Shown: piece after piece, positions 2,681 through 9,715 of the stretch
How positions within the stretch are numbered: the stretch's first letter is position 1
Layout: every line of letters begins with the position of its first letter
Made by a program: the position numbers and the translations under genes
From: Candidatus Villigracilaceae bacterium
GTDB taxonomy: Bacteria; Chloroflexota; Anaerolineae; Anaerolineales; Villigracilaceae
Reading direction: 5' to 3'
Length of the DNA: 64,000 nt
Assembly: GCA_026645935.1 (NCBI GenBank)
Contig: JAPKMP010000010.1
Span: forward strand, 62,001-126,000
The notes under the pieces: model-generated
What the model was told of the DNA's origin: nothing
Databases searched by the model: none
What the model saw: only the letters and a program-made list of their open reading frames with translations

Positions 2681-4420
2681 ATGCTTACCGAACTTCACAT
2701 CCAAAACTTCGCGATCATCGACAAACTCGACCTGCGCTTCGGTCCGGGGCTCATCATCCTGACCGGCGAGACCGGCGCGGGCAAATCCATCATCCTCGAC
2801 GCGGTGGTCATGCTCATCGGCGGCAAAGCGGATACCACTTTTGTCCGCACGGATTCGGAGGCGGCTTTCGTCGAAGGCGTGTTCCAACTCAAAGGTCCCG
2901 AACGCGAAGCGGTGCATGAGATCCTCAAGCGCGAAGAACTGATGGATGATCCCAATTACGTGGTGTTGATGCGTGAAGTGAGACGCGAGGGACGAAGTGT
3001 GGCGCGGATCAACGGGCGGACGGTGAACGTCGGTCTGCTGAAAGAGATCGGCGCATTGTTGGTGGATATTCACGGGCAGGCTGAACATCTTTCCCTGCTC
3101 GATCCGCGCGCGCATCTTGGACTGCTCGACCGTTATGCGGATGTTTCGAAACCGTTGAACGAATACCGGCAGACGTACCATTCTTTGCTCGCCCTTCGCA
3201 ATGAATTGAATTCCCTGCGCAAAGCCCAGGCAGATGCAGACCGGCGCATCGAAATGCTGACGTATCAAGTCGAAGAGATCGACACCGCGAAACTGAAAGT
3301 GGGCGAGGACGAAGAACTGAAGAAAGAACGCGACCGGCTTGCCAATGCCGAGTCGCTGGCAAAGAACGCGCAGGAGGCGCTCGCGATCCTCGAAGAAGGC
3401 TCGCCGGATACCCCCGCCGCCACCGATCTGATCGGCCAGGCGGCGCAGGCGCTCGCCGCGCTCGCGAAAATCGATTCGGGTCAGGCGGAATTGTCGAATC
3501 AAGCCGAAGTGATGCTCGATTCACTCTCGGATATCATCCATGAATTGCGCGGGTATCTGGATGAGATCGAATTCAACCCGAAGCGGCTCGACGAAGTGGA
3601 GGAACGACTCGACCTCATTCATTCGCTCACGCGCAAATACGGCGGCAGCATCCCGGCTGTAATCGCCTATGGCGAGGACGCGCAAAAACAACTCGAGACC
3701 ATCACCGGCGCGGCTGACCGCATCAACGAACTTGAGATGCAGGAAGCAAAACTGCTGGAAAAACTTTCCAAACAGGGCACCGACCTTTCGGAGAAGCGCA
3801 AATCTGCCGCGACGAAAATGGGCAAAGGCATCGAGACCGAACTCGACGATCTACGGATGGCATCTGCGCAATTCGGCGTCGATTTCCAGACCAAGCCCGA
3901 CCCGAACGGCATTCCCCTTGCGGATGGGACCCGCCTCGCCTTCGACCAGAGCGGAATCGACCGCGTTGAATTTCTCGTCGCCCCGAACCCCGGCGAAGGA
4001 CTCAAACCGCTGGCGAAGATCGCATCCGGCGGCGAGACCTCGCGCCTGATGCTCGGATTGAAAAACGTCATGGCGCGCGCCGATGAAGTCCCGTCCCTGA
4101 TCTTCGATGAGATCGACCAGGGCATCGGCGGGCGCGTGGGCATGGTGGTGGGGCACAAACTTTGGAATCTCTCGCGCAGTCACCAGGTCTTTTGTGTGAC
4201 GCATCTTCCCCAGCTCGCCGTCTTTGGCGATCAGCATTGCCAGGTGCAAAAACTCGTGGACAAGGGCCGTACCCTGACACGCGTCGAACCGCTCGAAGGG
4301 GAGGCGCGTTTGCTGGAACTTTCGCAAATGCTCGGCGAAGTGGGCGAAGGCACTCTGCGTTCCGCGCACGAACTTCTGCAGACCGCACGGCAAATGGTCA
4401 AGGAAAGCACGAAGAAATAA
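2681..4420 (+). CDS. recN: DNA repair protein RecN
   Basis: An SMC-like ATPase acting in double-strand-break repair. The Walker A motif GETGAGKS is at residues 29-36. The central region (about 150-400) is a long coiled coil rich in Glu, Lys and Leu. The C-terminal half has the ABC signature ASGGETSRLMLGLK and Walker B SLIFDEIDQGIGG. The 579-residue length is typical. The start ATG at 2681 lies 3 bases after the preceding stop, with no strong Shine-Dalgarno sequence, so coupling is likely. A hairpin immediately downstream ends the unit. Confidence 0.97.
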   Translation: MLTELHIQNFAIIDKLDLRFGPGLIILTGETGAGKSIILDAVVMLIGGKADTTFVRTDSEAAFVEGVFQLKGPEREAVHEILKREELMDDPNYVVLMREVRREGRSVARINGRTVNVGLLKEIGALLVDIHGQAEHLSLLDPRAHLGLLDRYADVSKPLNEYRQTYHSLLALRNELNSLRKAQADADRRIEMLTYQVEEIDTAKLKVGEDEELKKERDRLANAESLAKNAQEALAILEEGSPDTPAATDLIGQAAQALAALAKIDSGQAELSNQAEVMLDSLSDIIHELRGYLDEIEFNPKRLDEVEERLDLIHSLTRKYGGSIPAVIAYGEDAQKQLETITGAADRINELEMQEAKLLEKLSKQGTDLSEKRKSAATKMGKGIETELDDLRMASAQFGVDFQTKPDPNGIPLADGTRLAFDQSGIDRVEFLVAPNPGEGLKPLAKIASGGETSRLMLGLKNVMARADEVPSLIFDEIDQGIGGRVGMVVGHKLWNLSRSHQVFCVTHLPQLAVFGDQHCQVQKLVDKGRTLTRVEPLEGEARLLELSQMLGEVGEGTLRSAHELLQTARQMVKESTKK

Positions 4421-4426
4421 AAAAAA

Positions 4427-4450
4427 CATCCCGATGAGTTCATCGGGATG
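4427..4450 (+). terminator. Rho-independent terminator after recN
   Basis: The arms CATCCCGATGA (4427-4437) and TCATCGGGATG (4440-4450) are perfect complements. They are preceded by a run of seven A and followed by a T-rich stretch. It lies 6 bases after the recN stop. Confidence 0.75.
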
Positions 4451-4601
4451 TTCGTTCCAGGCATTCCATGCGATTGAGGCGGCTATCGCATAATGCAGCC
4501 AGCAGAAATTTCGATGGAAACGCGCTTTTTGGCGAACCGTTACCTTAATTTCATGACAAGCGATAAAATAACGCCACTTCAATTCAAAGGCGCATCGAAT
4601 T

Positions 4602-5867
4602 ATGTCACCAGATAAACAAGCCGAACCAAATCCGACCGTAACCAAAGATTCCTCCGAATTCAACAAGGACGCCTACGCCTCCATCCCGCCGGGGGAACTG
4701 GCCGTGTTTGCCGTTCAGGTGTTACAAGCGGACGGCTCTCCCGCCGCGACCGAAGATATCGTCTCGATCTGCTTTCGGTTCTTCCCGCACAGTTTTTCGC
4801 TAAAGAATTATTTCTATTGGCCCGACTCTGCCCTGGTGACCCGCCGATTGCACGACGCCAAAGAAAAGGGATTGCTGAAAGGCAACGCGGCCGACGGTTT
4901 TGAAGTGAAGGTTCAGGGCAGGCGGGTGGCTAAGCATGTAGCGAAGGCATTGGGTGTTGTTTTCCCTATCCCGCCCAAAGTGGAAGTTCCGCCCGCGCCC
5001 GTTGAAGAGAAGAAGGAAGAGTCCGAAGCGCCAGCGAGAGCCGAAGAGAAGGTAGTCGCAACACCCGCCCAGCCGCGAAAGAAAAAAGTGGTGAAGAAGC
5101 GGTTTGTCAAAACAGAAAAGAAGACAAAGAAGCCCCGTGTCAGGAAGAAACCTGTTGTTATAAAGAAGGCAACGATTACAAAGCCAAAGCCGAAACCCAG
5201 GGCAAAAGCCGTTAAACAGGTTGAGATAAAAAGGAAACCCGCTCCAAAACCGAAGGCAGGAAAGAAACAGGCGAAGTCTGTAAAAAAGGCGAAGGTAGCT
5301 GTCAAGCCGATTGTTAAGGCGAGACCAAAGCCTCAGCCGAAAGCACAGGTCAAACCGGCGCCAAAGGGAAAGGTTCATAAGCCGAAGCCGCAGAAAAAAC
5401 AAAGGCAAATTGCAAAGCAGGCGAAAGCGACACGACTGACGATGCCGCTCGCTCCGCCAACGGCGTGGAAAAAGGCTGAAGTTCCGGCGATCAAGCCCAA
5501 GGTCAAGGTTGAGGCCCCCCCCATCGGGGACAGGAAGCCGGTCAAAAAGGAAGCGGCGGTTCCGGTCGTTGTATCCAAAGAGGAGAAGGTCAAAGCCGCG
5601 AAAGTCGTCAAACAGATCGAACATTCGGACGCGTACCGGTCGTATCGGCGCAGCGGCAGGCGGGCGATCATCGGCGAGTTCGATTTCCGCAATATGCTCT
5701 TCGCGACGATGGAATCCTCGGCGGAGACGTTGAAACGCAACATGGATTTGTTCAAGCGCTACGCAGGCATTCATTTCCGCGCGGACCTGATCGCGTTCCT
5801 CGATTTTTGTGAAGAGAAATTTTCCGTTTTATTGGTATCGAAGGCGAAAGTTAAAGGTGGAAGATAG
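4602..5867 (+). CDS. Linker-histone-like protein: winged-helix head, Lys/Pro/Ala-rich tail, C-terminal helical cap
   Basis: This 421-residue protein has three parts. Residues about 28-118 look like a compact winged-helix fold (PPGELAVFAVQVLQ, then DSALVTRRLHDAKEKGLL and a beta-wing FEVKVQGRRVAKHV). Residues about 125-335 are a disordered basic tract dominated by K, P, A and V with dozens of KPK/KKxxKK motifs. Residues about 340-415 are a predicted helical domain (YRSYRRSGRRAIIGEFDFRN onward). A winged helix plus a K/A/P tail recalls eukaryotic histone H1, but I claim architecture, not homology. The tail should bind DNA or RNA. The next gene, a MORC-like ATPase, starts 2 bases after this stop, so the two very likely act together. 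Start ATG 4602 has only a weak AAAGG upstream. Confidence 0.6.
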   Translation: MSPDKQAEPNPTVTKDSSEFNKDAYASIPPGELAVFAVQVLQADGSPAATEDIVSICFRFFPHSFSLKNYFYWPDSALVTRRLHDAKEKGLLKGNAADGFEVKVQGRRVAKHVAKALGVVFPIPPKVEVPPAPVEEKKEESEAPARAEEKVVATPAQPRKKKVVKKRFVKTEKKTKKPRVRKKPVVIKKATITKPKPKPRAKAVKQVEIKRKPAPKPKAGKKQAKSVKKAKVAVKPIVKARPKPQPKAQVKPAPKGKVHKPKPQKKQRQIAKQAKATRLTMPLAPPTAWKKAEVPAIKPKVKVEAPPIGDRKPVKKEAAVPVVVSKEEKVKAAKVVKQIEHSDAYRSYRRSGRRAIIGEFDFRNMLFATMESSAETLKRNMDLFKRYAGIHFRADLIAFLDFCEEKFSVLLVSKAKVKGGR

Positions 5868-5869
5868 GC

Positions 5870-7744
5870 ATGGCAGGCACAAGAAAATTACAGTACGCCG
5901 ACCGCGTTGCGATCCAGCAGGCGGACCAGGCGATCCGCAAGGATGTGCTGCGCGCGCTGGTGGAGGTCATCACCAACAGCAACGACAGCTATTCGCGTCT
6001 CGAGCAGGCGGGCTGGTCGGTCGGCGGCGAGATCTTCATCCATATTCACCGCAAGCACAAGAATTCGACCATCCGCGTCTGGGACCACGCCGAGGGGATG
6101 AACGACTCGCGCATGGATAAAGTGGTCGGGACGTACGGCGAAGCGACCAGCGGCATCAAGGAAGATAAACATGTGCGCGGCATGTGGGGGCGCGGACTCA
6201 AGGATTCCATCTTTGGTTTGGGTCACGGGTATGTGCATTCGTTCAAAGGCGGGAACTTTTATTCGTGCTCCCTGCTCATCAAGAACGGCGTGCCGACCTT
6301 TACGCTCGAAGAGCCTGTCAGGGCGTTGGTTCCCATGCGGCAGCAATACGACATACTCGAAGGCAACGGGACGATCGTGGATATCATCGTCTCGCGCGAT
6401 GATGTCAAGGTGCCTCAGTTCGACAACCTGCGCAATTACCTGCAAAGACATTTCGAACTGCGACCCATCATGAGCAATCCCCGCAGAAAAATCGTTTTGC
6501 GCGATGTGGCGGCGGATGGAACGGTGCGCCAGGAATACACGCTCAGTTACAAACCGCCCAAGGGCGAAAAGGTCCTGAGCGAACGCATCAAGATACCCGG
6601 ATATCCCGCCTGGGTGAAGCTGGAGCTTTTCCGTTCGGCGATCCAGCTGTCCACGCGCGGCGAGGAAGGCGATTATGCCGACGGCGGCCTGCTGGTCATC
6701 AGCAAAGGCATGGTATTGTCGCTGACCATGCTCAGATACGAGAACGACCCGGTGGCGGCGTATTTCTACGGGACGATGCAATGCGACTTCCTGCATGAAC
6801 TGCTGAAGAAGGACGAACCCGTATTGACCGCCACGCGCGACGGCATCAACTGGTCGCATCCATTCGCGAAGGCGATAAAGACCGCGGTGGAGTCGAAACT
6901 CGAACCGCTGATCGAAAAGGAACGCAGGCACGCCCTGCGCGAGGAACAAACCAAGCTTGATAAGAAGTTAAGGCAGAAGATCGACCGCGCCCTGCACGAG
7001 TTGAATCACATTGCGCTGACCGAATTGAGGGAACGCAGGGATGGCGACGCGCGCATCCTCCTGCCCGAGACCGGCATGGCATTCATTCCCGAACGCGCCT
7101 ACGTGCAGACGGGCAGGGTGCTGACATTGACGCTGCGCGCCGACATCGCAAAGAAGGTAAACCCGAACGCGGTGATTCAGGTCGCTTCCAACAGCGGAGA
7201 GGTGATCGTGCTGACGCCGCAGGTGACGTTGAAGCCGCACAGGGCGGATCCGTCCGTGGGCGAGGCGCAGGTGAGAGTGGAAGGCAGGCAGGTGGGCGAA
7301 GAAGGCGTCGTCACCGCCTTTATCGGAAGACTCCATGCGCAGGCGATGGTGCAGGTCCACTCGAAGAAAGAGGCGCTGGTCGAATCCCCCACGCGCGGGA
7401 AGAGCGCGCTCTTCAACGACATCCGCTTCGACGACCGCATGGATCCGCGCCAGCGAGTCTACTTCGACCGCGTCAACTCGAGCATCGTCATCGCGACGAA
7501 CGCGCCTTCGGTGAATATGTATCTGGATGAAAACAACCGCCTCGACACGACCGTGCAGGGACAGGTGCTGTTGGCGGAACTCGTCACCGAAGCCGTGTGC
7601 CGCGAGATCGCCCGCGAAGGCGTGGAGAAGGGACGTTTCCTCGTCCTTGAAGGCTCCGAGGCGGACGCGATTCAGAACCATTTCATCCGCTTGCAGAACC
7701 GCTATTCGCATTTGATCCACGAGCATATTGTGACGATGGAATAG
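5870..7744 (+). CDS. MORC-like GHKL ATPase
   Basis: The 624-residue protein begins with a GHKL (Hsp90/MutL/histidine-kinase-type) ATPase. The N-box has E32 and N36 (VEVITNSNDS), the G1 box is WDHAEGM at 71-77 and the G2 box is GMWGRGLKDSIFGLGHG at 104-120. A transducer-like region follows (about 170-335), then a charged coiled coil (about 338-390). Next is a beta-rich, probably Ig-like domain (about 405-498), and a C-terminal domain (about 510-624) with the segment VYFDRVNSSIVIATNAPSV. The GRGLK G2 loop and absence of a phosphorylatable H-box argue for the MORC/paraMORC branch rather than a sensor kinase. The start is supported by GGTGGAAG upstream. It forms a two-gene unit with the basic protein at 4602-5867, ended by a hairpin at 7776-7816. 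Cellular role unknown. Confidence 0.75.
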   Translation: MAGTRKLQYADRVAIQQADQAIRKDVLRALVEVITNSNDSYSRLEQAGWSVGGEIFIHIHRKHKNSTIRVWDHAEGMNDSRMDKVVGTYGEATSGIKEDKHVRGMWGRGLKDSIFGLGHGYVHSFKGGNFYSCSLLIKNGVPTFTLEEPVRALVPMRQQYDILEGNGTIVDIIVSRDDVKVPQFDNLRNYLQRHFELRPIMSNPRRKIVLRDVAADGTVRQEYTLSYKPPKGEKVLSERIKIPGYPAWVKLELFRSAIQLSTRGEEGDYADGGLLVISKGMVLSLTMLRYENDPVAAYFYGTMQCDFLHELLKKDEPVLTATRDGINWSHPFAKAIKTAVESKLEPLIEKERRHALREEQTKLDKKLRQKIDRALHELNHIALTELRERRDGDARILLPETGMAFIPERAYVQTGRVLTLTLRADIAKKVNPNAVIQVASNSGEVIVLTPQVTLKPHRADPSVGEAQVRVEGRQVGEEGVVTAFIGRLHAQAMVQVHSKKEALVESPTRGKSALFNDIRFDDRMDPRQRVYFDRVNSSIVIATNAPSVNMYLDENNRLDTTVQGQVLLAELVTEAVCREIAREGVEKGRFLVLEGSEADAIQNHFIRLQNRYSHLIHEHIVTME

Positions 7745-7775
7745 CAGACGAAAGACCATGGACGATGAACAATAG

Positions 7776-7816
7776 AAAAGGGCGATAGACTGAGGTAATG
7801 GTCTACCGTCCCTTTT
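7776..7816 (+). terminator. Terminator-like hairpin after the GHKL ATPase gene
   Basis: AAAAGGG (7776-7782) pairs with CCCTTTT (7810-7816), with an inner TAGAC/GTCTA pairing, giving a bulged stem-loop ending in TTTT. It separates the plus-strand pair from the minus-strand transporter gene. Confidence 0.55.
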
Positions 7817-7828
7817 ATTTACCGCAAA

Positions 7829-7874
7829 ACTCGCAAGGAAAAGCTATAAACTTGGGGAGCTTAGCGTTCCTTGC
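7829..7874 (-). terminator. Inverted repeat downstream of the DMT transporter gene
   Basis: GCAAGGAA and TTCCTTGC form the outer arms and AGCT-containing segments pair inside. It lies just past the minus-strand stop at 7881 and may end that transcript. T-tract support is weak. Confidence 0.35.
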
Positions 7875-7880
7875 AGTTGT

Positions 7881-8315
7881 TTACCTCACCGTCAGCCACA
7901 CTCCCAGCATCACCACCACAAACCCGAACACCCGCTGAAGGTCAATCGTCCGCGGAGCCATGCCGAGCAGGCCGAAATGGTCGAGGATGGCGGCAACGAG
8001 AATCTGTCCTGCCATGAGGGTGATCAACGCGCCCGCCGCGCCGATACGGGGAATCATATATCCCATGCCCATGATGACGATCAGCCCCAGCGCACCCGCG
8101 CACAACGCGTACCAGGGCACGTTCTTCCACTGCCCGAGTCGCGAGCCGAGGAAAGCCATGGGGATCAACGCCGCGATCGCGCCGCCGATGTGAACGATGA
8201 AGACGCTTTCGAGAGGTCCCAGTTTTTGCGTGATGAGACTCGACAACGGTCCCTGCACGCCGATTGCCATTCCGCCCGCCAGACCGATAAGGATGATTAA
8301 GAAGAGGGTGTCCAT
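7881..8315 (-). CDS. DMT-superfamily small transporter (YdcZ/DUF606 type)
   Basis: A 144-residue protein with five hydrophobic helices: MDTLFLIILIGLAGGMAIGV, then about 35-55, 65-88, 92-112 and 118-140. It matches the half-size drug/metabolite transporter family DUF606 (YdcZ), whose members usually work as dimers or paired subunits; the substrate is unknown. A longer frame begins at 8348, but the ATG at 8315 has a CAGGAA ribosome-binding site 6-7 bases upstream, so I chose the shorter form. It is downstream of the malic enzyme gene on the same strand. Confidence 0.8.
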   Translation of the reverse strand: MDTLFLIILIGLAGGMAIGVQGPLSSLITQKLGPLESVFIVHIGGAIAALIPMAFLGSRLGQWKNVPWYALCAGALGLIVIMGMGYMIPRIGAAGALITLMAGQILVAAILDHFGLLGMAPRTIDLQRVFGFVVVMLGVWLTVR

Positions 8316-8365
8316 TTGATTTCCTGAGATTGTCTGTAAATTGCTCAAGCCGCCGGGAGCATATT

Positions 8366-9715
8366 TTATTCTTCCACGTACGGCACGTAATCGGCGCGAG
8401 CGATGCCCTGCCTGATCGCAGTCTCCGCCACTGCTCTTGCAACCGCGCGATGCACTTTCTTGTCGAGCGGGCTGGGCACCAACTCGCCGGGCGGGGTCAT
8501 CGAAGCGATGGTCTCCGCCGCGGCAACCAGCATCTCCTGCGTGATTTGAGGCGCGTTCGCATCCACTGCGCCGCGGAAGATGCCCGGAAAGCCCAGGACA
8601 TTGTTCACCGATTTACCGTCCGCCGCGAACGCCGCGCCGTGTTCCAGCGCCACATCCGGATCGATCTCCGAGTTCGGGTTCGAAAGCGCCAGGATGATCT
8701 GTCCTTTGCGCACCATCTCCGGCTTGATGAGATTTGGCGCGCCTGTCGTCGCAACAACAATATCACAGTTCGCCATGATGTCTTTCAGGCTGGATTTGAC
8801 CCCGCCCGCTTTTTCGAATCGACTCAACGCCTCTAGACTCAAGTCCGCGCCGTAGACCGGATTCCCCGTCAGACGCATCAACATCTGACCGATGGCCTGA
8901 CCAGCCGCCCCAAGCCCGACCTGCCCGATGACGGCTTTCTTCATGTCCATGCCTGCCTCGCGCGTGGCGACCATCAATGCCGCAGTGGAGACGACTGCAG
9001 TCCCATGCTGGTCGTCGTGCATGACGGGCTTGTCCAGCATGGATTGTAATCTCTGCTCGATCTCGAAACAACGCGGCGCGGAAATGTCTTCAAGTTGAAT
9101 CGCCGCGAAGGTCGGGGCGATCGCCGCAACGGTATTGATAATTTCATCGGTATCTTTGGTGTTCAATAGAATCGGAATCCCCGAAAGCCCCACCAATGTT
9201 TCCATCAACATGGCTTTGCCTTCCATGACGGGCATCCCAGCCACCGCACCTATATCCCCCAATCCTAATACAGCGGTTCCGTCAGTGATGATCGCAACCA
9301 TGTGGCTGATGCTCGTGTACAAACGCGCTTGAGAAGGCTCCTTGGCGATCCGCATGCAGACTTCCGCCACGCCGGGCGTGTAGACGCGGCGCAGGGTAGT
9401 CAACGAATCGATCGGGTAGCGGGAGCGGATGGCGATCTTCCCTTTTTGATGCAGTTCCAGCACTTCATCGCGCACTTCGATGATTCTTGTGCCTTCGTTC
9501 GCTTCCATTGCAGCAAGAACGGCGGCGAGGGTCTTTTCGTCATCTGCGGTGACGGTAATATCGCGCACCACATGCCGCGAGGTTTCGGTCAACAGCACCA
9601 TACTGCCGATGCTCCCGCCCGTGTCTGCGATGGCGGTCAATAGTTTTGCTAGCACGCCTTTCTTCTGCGAATTCCGCACGCGCACGATGCGCAAAATTTT
9701 TTGGTCCCAAGCCAT
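8366..9715 (-). CDS. NAD(P)-dependent malic enzyme with N-terminal ACT domain
   Basis: Oxidatively decarboxylates malate to pyruvate. Residues about 6-85 form an ACT-type regulatory domain (VRVRNSQKKGVLAKLLTAIA), which in other enzymes binds amino acids or related effectors. The catalytic part follows with YTPGVAEVC, the NTKDTDEII segment, DDQHGTAVV and the dinucleotide-binding GLGAAGQAIG. Its 449 residues fit the short bacterial malic enzyme (about 385) plus the ACT domain. The ATG at 9715 is preceded by AAAGGAGA. The ACT domain implies allosteric control; the effector is not visible from sequence. Confidence 0.93.
   Translation of the reverse strand: MAWDQKILRIVRVRNSQKKGVLAKLLTAIADTGGSIGSMVLLTETSRHVVRDITVTADDEKTLAAVLAAMEANEGTRIIEVRDEVLELHQKGKIAIRSRYPIDSLTTLRRVYTPGVAEVCMRIAKEPSQARLYTSISHMVAIITDGTAVLGLGDIGAVAGMPVMEGKAMLMETLVGLSGIPILLNTKDTDEIINTVAAIAPTFAAIQLEDISAPRCFEIEQRLQSMLDKPVMHDDQHGTAVVSTAALMVATREAGMDMKKAVIGQVGLGAAGQAIGQMLMRLTGNPVYGADLSLEALSRFEKAGGVKSSLKDIMANCDIVVATTGAPNLIKPEMVRKGQIILALSNPNSEIDPDVALEHGAAFAADGKSVNNVLGFPGIFRGAVDANAPQITQEMLVAAAETIASMTPPGELVPSPLDKKVHRAVARAVAETAIRQGIARADYVPYVEE

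Follow-up and report, generated by a model that had tools for sequence, protein, structure and literature searches.

A two-gene unit in a 64,000-nucleotide stretch of a Candidatus Villigracilaceae bacterium (contig JAPKMP010000010.1, positions 62,001 to 126,000; the whole stretch is called the window) encodes a predicted GHKL-transducer ATPase and a protein that accompanies it wherever we found it. The first gene (4602..5867, + strand), delimited from its open reading frame (ORF) and homologue profiles, encodes P1, a protein of 421 amino acids (aa) with a winged-helix head, a basic linker and a helical C-terminal domain. The second gene (5870..7744, + strand) encodes P2, a protein of 624 aa assigned as a GHKL ATPase from its ORF, Pfam and alignments. 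In all 28 distinct P2 loci, with P2 identity down to 21%, the gene immediately upstream on the same strand encodes a relative of P1. By analogy with known systems, we propose that the two proteins would form a DNA-bound, ATP-gated clamp of the paraMORC-like type, to which a linker resembling that of histone H1 was added in the window's lineage. Our confidence in this reading is about evenly divided.

The gene pair and its constancy

Because the differences between the window and locus L010 concentrate at third codon positions, P1 and P2 are real genes. The counts at codon positions 1/2/3 are 59/29/187 for P2, 21/18/58 for the P1 head and 22/17/40 for the P1 C-terminal domain; the P1 tail is loosely constrained (47/55/69). 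Both genes lie on the + strand and the P1 stop is separated from the P2 ATG by 2 bp, in agreement with the initial annotation, which had recognized a two-gene unit with this spacing and a terminator behind it. The intrinsic terminator 3' of the pair (7776..7820, + strand) was evaluated by folding against shuffles. Its hairpin (7776-7816) has a stability of -17.7 kcal/mol (z -2.73; 2 of 200 shuffles were equally stable), and the 3' arm runs into the T-rich TTTTATTT. A simple terminator scan of the window did not list this hairpin and found no excess of terminator-like sites (7 versus 6.7 expected). The observation of a two-gene unit is confirmed. The genome of the window (4.33 Mb, 98.67% complete) has one P2 match, and its relatives in named records are Anaerolineales/Chloroflexi bins.

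P2 loci came from four sources: contigs of genomes (12 real of 13), a sample of the class (9 of 296 genomes), a sample of the phylum (14 of 400) and viral contigs, where 1 of 50 candidate stretches was a P2 locus. The total of 28 counts the window and merges L009 with L023, which are one contig seen twice; because L006 and L007 are almost the same, not all of the 28 are independent. Contig ends cut P1 in L004 and L049 and P2 in L029. One of the 28 loci, L050, lies on a tailed-phage contig. The relationship among the upstream proteins was evaluated with leave-one-out profiles, which recovered 15 of 15 P1 proteins (from 9 of the 28 loci and 6 variant loci described below) at E 3.2e-20 or lower from a set of 1191 ORFs and gave the next ORF in a given locus E 0.42 or higher. 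In seven loci (L030, L044, L045, L047, L048, L079 and L081) the two genes overlap, by 4-8 bp, and with the start codons chosen they are separated by 68-97 bp in five (L004-L007 and L011) and by 235-424 bp in L008, L009 and L049. Distances among P1 proteins follow those among P2 proteins over 276 pairs from 24 loci (r 0.94; maximum of 1000 permutations 0.54), and within 147 close pairs r is 0.70. Such a correlation would fit a complex and is also expected from shared descent.

A search of the phylum with the P1 profile found 19 of 400 genomes and added six further loci, in which P1 precedes another GHKL ATPase (3 clear, 2 putative and 1 decayed). In L079, L081 and L082, P1 is followed by a GHKL ATPase of 532-550 aa from another subfamily (HATPase_c_3, E 3.8e-15 to 6.8e-17), for which a profile comparison with the P2 family gave E 7e-13 across GHKL and transducer. 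P1 is paired in L077 and L078 with a protein of 597-626 aa, in which a GHKL-like motif was recognized by eye; the profile comparison is weak (E 0.024, probability 2), and Pfam and a sequence search of the PDB are silent. In L080, an intact P1 stands beside a decayed GHKL ATPase fragment (7431-8496, by eye). As these six loci adjoin other GHKL ATPases, P1 is the constant partner and the ATPase varies. The pairing that the initial annotation had left to a survey of homologues extends to the variant loci, and throughout a phylum, as well as in a phage contig, the P1 family goes with GHKL ATPases of more than a single kind.

Several observations accompany this survey. One metagenome bin (MAG9) has two copies of the pair on separate contigs, L007:6755-9878 and L012:6774-9881, which are 78% and 74% identical to the P2 query P0002 and represent either paralogues or a mixed bin. 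In genome G631, the P1 gene is apparently split over two contig ends (L049:10332-11786 and L083:7261-7629), perhaps because the repetitive linker broke the assembly; L083, the probable other half of the L049 gene, was left out of the count. L014 (Gammaproteobacteria) was dropped as a false match of 51 residues in a lysine-rich ORF.

Domain architecture of P2 and P1

Sequence motifs and a low-confidence model indicate that P2 is a GHKL-transducer ATPase. The N-box E32..N36 (5963..5977, + strand) contains, by analogy with GHKL ATPases, the catalytic Glu and the Mg-binding Asn. It is followed by the G1 box D72-H-A-E-G-M77 (6083..6100, +), with D72, A74 and G76 invariant, and by the G2 box or lid from R103 to K111 (6176..6202, +). 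In an alignment of 11 P2 sequences (A3, window included), E32, N36, D72, G76, R103, G104, G107, R108, G109, K111 and R323 are invariant, and the GHKL boxes recognized in the initial annotation are therein borne out. R323 could act as a basic finger. In the phage copy L050, which lies outside the 11-sequence alignment, the G2 box reads RGFFSVGAK and G107 and R108 are not kept. Pfam assigns HATPase_c_3 to P2 with E 1.8e-5 and a score of 25.2 against a gathering threshold of 25, and the same family is matched at E up to 0.1 in 9 of 11 P2 family members. A profile search of solved structures with P2 gave endoplasmins as the top matches (E 0.0044 and up) and MORC3 at E 0.0081. NCBIfam, PADLOC and PHROGs gave no convincing match for P2.

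The AlphaFold model of P2, built on 13 similar sequences, has a mean predicted local distance difference test (pLDDT) of 59. Foldseek placed this model with the ATPase regions of GyrB, Hsp90 and MutL (best E 1.7e-7). VIA-align tied ParE, GyrB, Hsp90 and topoisomerase (Topo) VI B at Z 11-12.4, and VIA aligned residues 20-357 with Topo VI B 9o0g_D over 256 positions (Z 12.0, root mean square deviation 5.3). These matches agree with the GHKL family to which the second protein had been assigned. A transducer (S5-like) region at about 176-330 (6395..6859, +) is suggested by the Topo VI B match to the low-confidence model, and a long helix at about 331-387 (6860..7030, +) in the same model may form a coiled coil. 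It leads to an all-beta domain at about 403-497 (7076..7360, +), which falls in pLDDT blocks 401-490 at 80 or more. The predicted C-terminal domain at about 515-624 (7412..7741, +) is conserved in alignment A1 and partly in A3, with a low-confidence fold. The coiled coil, beta domain and C-terminal domain listed in the initial annotation are thus visible in this low-confidence model, the coiled coil as a possible one and only the beta domain at good local confidence. Three distant P2 relatives are 748-757 aa long, with additional residues after the beta domain. A nuclease, TIR, HEF_HK or MzaA domain was not matched in P2 by Pfam and PADLOC.

The winged-helix domain of P1 at about 24-118 (4671..4955, +) was carried over by alignment from the AF2 model of the tail-less homologue L013 (pLDDT 81), in which it occupies residues of about 18-112; the boundaries agree closely with the 28-118 predicted earlier. 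The closest folds to the L013 head are AF1382 and SSV1 F-93, followed by MntR and DtxR (Z 8-9.8), and MukF/MukE also appear when P1 is compared by fold. Against viral models, Foldseek returned no P1 match below E 0.05. The all-helical C-terminal domain at about 324-416 (5571..5849, +) is conserved in the alignment and is also present in the L013 model; fold searches with the whole model identified no match for it.

Between the two domains lies a K/P/A/V-rich basic linker (119-323, about 205 residues; 4956..5570, +) recognized by its composition, with 26% K, 17% P, 13% A, 13% V and a net charge of +51. It is long in 17 of 26 P1 proteins (73-205 residues, net +20 to +53) and short in the other 9 (4-23 residues); this count excludes L004 and L049, which are cut by contig ends, and the six variant loci. 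Between the window and L010, 75 linker codons change the amino acid and 34 are silent, so that the composition is kept and the sequence is not. Since the sequence is hardly constrained and 9 of 26 proteins are without the long form, the linker need not be functional. The tail-less label requires two changes on the P2 tree, with one change in 8% of bootstrap trees, so that either one gain followed by a loss or two events may account for the linker. The long basic linker is an insert in one Anaerolineales group and not the conserved design of the P1 family. The initial annotation had described a basic tail of roughly 210 residues and a C-terminal helical domain in an arrangement like histone H1: both parts exist, whereas the arrangement fails as a design, the stretch being internal and often short. 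The lineage with the H1-like linker and its close tail-less relatives offer a ready comparison for what such tails do in bacteria.

Relation to known systems and proposed function

Linker histone H1 and bacterial H1-like proteins (e.g. AlgP, in the part of PMC9239181 consulted) likewise join a winged-helix head and a K/P/A-rich basic stretch in one protein. In P1, by contrast, the stretch is internal and followed by a second folded domain, and Pfam gives no linker-histone match, although the winged-helix fold as such is there. P1 was therefore rejected as a linker histone, the basic stretch being internal and lineage-specific and the family match missing.

For P2, the nearest comparison in build is the paraMORC group, which the text of Iyer, Abhiman and Aravind (2008, PMC2292703) places mainly in restriction-modification operons. 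The predicted N-terminal GHKL domain, S5-like transducer and distinct C-terminal extension are shared, as are a sporadic distribution and the presence of DNA methyltransferases beside 4 of 14 distant pair loci. Differences are that a directly upstream winged helix-turn-helix (wHTH)/helical partner gene was not found described in the text of PMC2292703, the figures lying outside that search, that no superfamily II (SFII) helicase occurs among ten window neighbours, and that the family-specific RE nuclease and TIR additions have no Pfam match in P2. The C-terminal RE-fold nuclease (DUF4263-like) of paraMORC3 and Shedu type I-D also has no Pfam counterpart in P2 or its relatives, in which the C-terminal fold comes from a low-confidence model. 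MORC proteins share the GHKL boxes, transducer and long helix. The MORC signature in the S5 domain is GhXhhpXXRhl in the same text (PMC2292703). P2 reads GLLVISKGMVL at the place chosen by eye, with M for the signature arginine (T, I, A or G in relatives), and neither an SFII helicase nor a restriction-modification neighbourhood was found among the ten window neighbours. MORC membership was rejected on the missing arginine; of the earlier label "MORC-like GHKL ATPase", the GHKL assignment stands.

Other systems are more distant. The ATPase modules of Topo VI B, GyrB and MutL share the GHKL-transducer fold, but P1 and P2 have no TOPRIM or nuclease match in Pfam; in particular, the Pfam scan did not match the TOPRIM domain of the Topo VI A subunit in P1. 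The HEF_HK/Response_reg_2 pair, as far as PMC8011034 was consulted, likewise consists of two genes, one of them for a GHKL protein, in the vicinity of restriction-modification genes, but PF19191 and PF19192 are absent from the Pfam matches of P1 and P2. Phage T4 rIIA contains a GHKL domain (PMC7824862, consulted in part), and phage contig L050 also carries the pair. In single-sequence comparisons of low sensitivity, hhalign related rIIA to P2 over the GHKL region only (E 0.0018, probability 14.6) and found no similarity of rIIB to P1 (probability 0.1). Identity with rIIAB was set aside on these comparisons, the signal being a general GHKL one for rIIA with none for rIIB. From the MZA defence system P2 differs in giving no match to MzaA, the only mza product compared. 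PADLOC gave no convincing match for P1 or P2 (best E 0.029) and none at 0.1 for ten relatives, and no entry in Pfam, NCBIfam, PADLOC or PHROGs names the pair. A literature search at the level of titles and the beginnings of abstracts, with most subscription-journal papers outside it, found no description of a P1-P2 pair. All the above agree with the initial annotation in knowing no named system: the pair appears to be an unnamed partnership whose ATPase is paraMORC-like in build, and the wHTH-helical partner may be drawn or named elsewhere.

What is known of prokaryotic MORC relatives comes mainly from their gene neighbourhoods, and the recruitment of such ATPases to DNA is unclear. As the constant partner of more than one GHKL ATPase kind, P1 suggests itself as a candidate for the subunit that recognises DNA. 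In MutL, topoisomerase and MORC ATPases, ATP closes a dimer gate around DNA and hydrolysis reopens it. A similar cycle can be proposed here, in which P1 and P2 would be two obligate subunits of one DNA-acting machine. The winged helix of P1 would contact DNA, its C-terminal helical domain would dock onto P2, and P1 would in this way bring P2 to DNA. ATP binding would dimerise the GHKL domains of P2, the transducer and long helix would close around DNA, and hydrolysis would reopen them. In some distant kin of the phylum, the module, standing beside DNA methyltransferases or Sigma70_r4/HARE-HTH proteins, would probably serve restriction or epigenetic discrimination. In the window's group, where the locus is a settled chromosomal one, the long linker of P1 would increase affinity for DNA irrespective of sequence and would condense the DNA around the clamp or bridge it. 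We infer the P1-P2 binding, the clamp, the compaction of DNA and any function of the pair from genes and single-protein models. An extended form of this proposal, which we regard as doubtful, is an independently arisen bacterial chromatin-type system. An obligate winged-helix DNA-recognition subunit bearing an H1-like lysine/proline/alanine linker would load a MORC-like GHKL ATPase, and this ATPase would clamp DNA and condense it. The system would derive from a module associated with restriction and would, in one Anaerolineales group, have become a resident machine for chromosome organisation or silencing.

Several points weigh against a clamp. Chaperones and kinases that have no role on DNA are also found among GHKL ATPases. 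The P2 model is of low quality, its transducer and C-terminal domains being drawn from that model plus conservation, and the phage copy has an altered G2 box. Tight coupling of the genes is not universal, given the gaps of up to 424 bp. The linker is hardly constrained and short in 9 of the 26 counted P1 proteins, and no DNA methyltransferase was found near any of the 19 loci of the window's group.

An alternative is an anti-invader module, a paraMORC-like restriction or silencing component in which P1 would recognise unmodified or foreign DNA and P2 would block or condense it, with no linked methyltransferase needed in this lineage. The association of paraMORCs with restriction-modification operons described in the text of PMC2292703 and the patchy occurrence of P2 (14 of 400 phylum genomes) would suit it. 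DNA methyltransferases lie near 4 of 14 distant loci (MmeI-like in L045, N6_N4 in L046 and L079, Eco57I-type in L081) and 0 of 19 loci of the window's group (Fisher p 0.024) in a scan for the [NDS]PP[YFW] motif within 6 kb where contigs reach (flanks 2.2-12 kb), which is blind to cytosine-C5 methyltransferases. The 19 exclude the window and include L013, L077 and L078 among the 14 are close kin, and motif matches in L028 and L080, judged by eye to be no methyltransferases, were left out. Sigma70_r4 proteins adjoin L077, L081 and L082, the L077 neighbour with a HARE-HTH domain, and the end of MzaA is matched by the Sigma70_r4 part of both the L077 and the L082 neighbour (E 8.4e-7 and 1.7e-6). 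On the other side, the locus in the window's group is settled, because 14 of the 19 loci have the same upstream gene; PADLOC gave no convincing match, and the P2 query P0002 was unmatched on 72,556 plasmids and 50,697 phage records. Since methyltransferases lie near 4 of 14 versus 0 of 19 loci, the anti-invader idea, raised in the initial annotation together with a chromatin-like module, fits some distant kin better than the window locus. We consider it possible but rather less than probable as an account of the pair. Placement in a defence island was rejected for the window locus, where the neighbours are mostly ordinary, apart from a gene for a Cas4-like nuclease about 3.3 kb upstream.

It is unlikely that the two proteins are a regulatory pair and form no clamp, P1 acting as a repressor or activator of the winged-helix kind and P2 as an ATP-dependent switch or chaperone for loading P1 or taking it off. 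In fold, the P1 head comes nearest to small winged-helix proteins of archaea and to regulators of the DtxR/MntR type, and the Sigma70_r4 proteins stand beside variant pairs; however, the C-terminal domain and constant pairing with large GHKL-transducer ATPases are unusual for transcription factors, and non-specific coating of DNA would suit the long basic insert better. It is very improbable that P2 is an Hsp90-like chaperone and P1 its dedicated co-chaperone, with the winged helix as a protein-protein module: endoplasmins lead the solved-structure matches and MukF/MukE appear among the P1 folds, but MORC3 is in the same list, the fold scores of GyrB, ParE and Topo VI B are level with that of Hsp90, P1 is strongly basic and some kin adjoin DNA-modification genes.

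Neighbourhood and distribution

The ten window neighbours scanned are a Cas4-like PD-(D/E)XK nuclease, NAD kinase, RecN/SMC, YdcZ, malic enzyme, HAD, MoaA-type and PIN-TRAM proteins and two without a Pfam match. The stand-alone Cas4-like gene (741-1253; Pfam Cas_Cas4 E 4.1e-9, PADLOC Cas4 E 1e-20) sits between the NAD kinase gene and a gene without a Pfam match. The many PADLOC matches of RecN were taken as SMC/AAA cross-matches. The gene that precedes P1 in 14 of 19 group loci is membrane glycosyltransferase-like (PMT_2, below cut-off); in L002 one gene separates it from P1. In most of the group this gene and the pair are located between polX and ydcZ. Sites without the pair have ydcZ and polX adjacent in L093 (another genus of the family) and separated by an MFS-type gene (by eye) in L092 (same genus). 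In the window, the pair and ydcZ are together but lie between recN and the malic enzyme gene, and L010 has the same ydcZ and malic enzyme side. The pair in the window's group looks like one old insertion that then stayed.

P2 is found in 9 of 11 sampled genomes of the window's genus and in 1 of 14 listed in the rest of the family. Profile searches in Pseudomonadota gave 0 of 299 genomes with P2 profile A3 and 0 of 200 with P1 profile A7, which, with no positive control there, shows little. Viral contigs searched with P2 profile A1 and plasmids searched with the L044 and L030 ATPases gave nothing. The L081 ATPase matched one Rhizobium plasmid place, where no P1-like gene was recognized by eye among the neighbours. 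The pair is apparently carried by a tailed phage: L050 (pair at 4281-7184) belongs to a viral contig of 129 kb that encodes a T4-type terminase (Terminase_6N, E 8.8e-8, L091:1414-3312). Its ATPase has no relative in the 50,697 phage records and found itself alone in one viral-contig scan.

Three-gene units of a P1 relative, the other large partner and a Sigma70_r4 protein occur at L077:4716-8681, L081:4777-10178 and L082:6343-10442, and L078 is alike by eye. A PIN-domain gene lies upstream in L077 and L029. In a distant genome of the phylum, the pair lies within an operon for F-type ATP synthase, flanked by the genes of the gamma and beta subunits (L030:5540-13981, names by eye).

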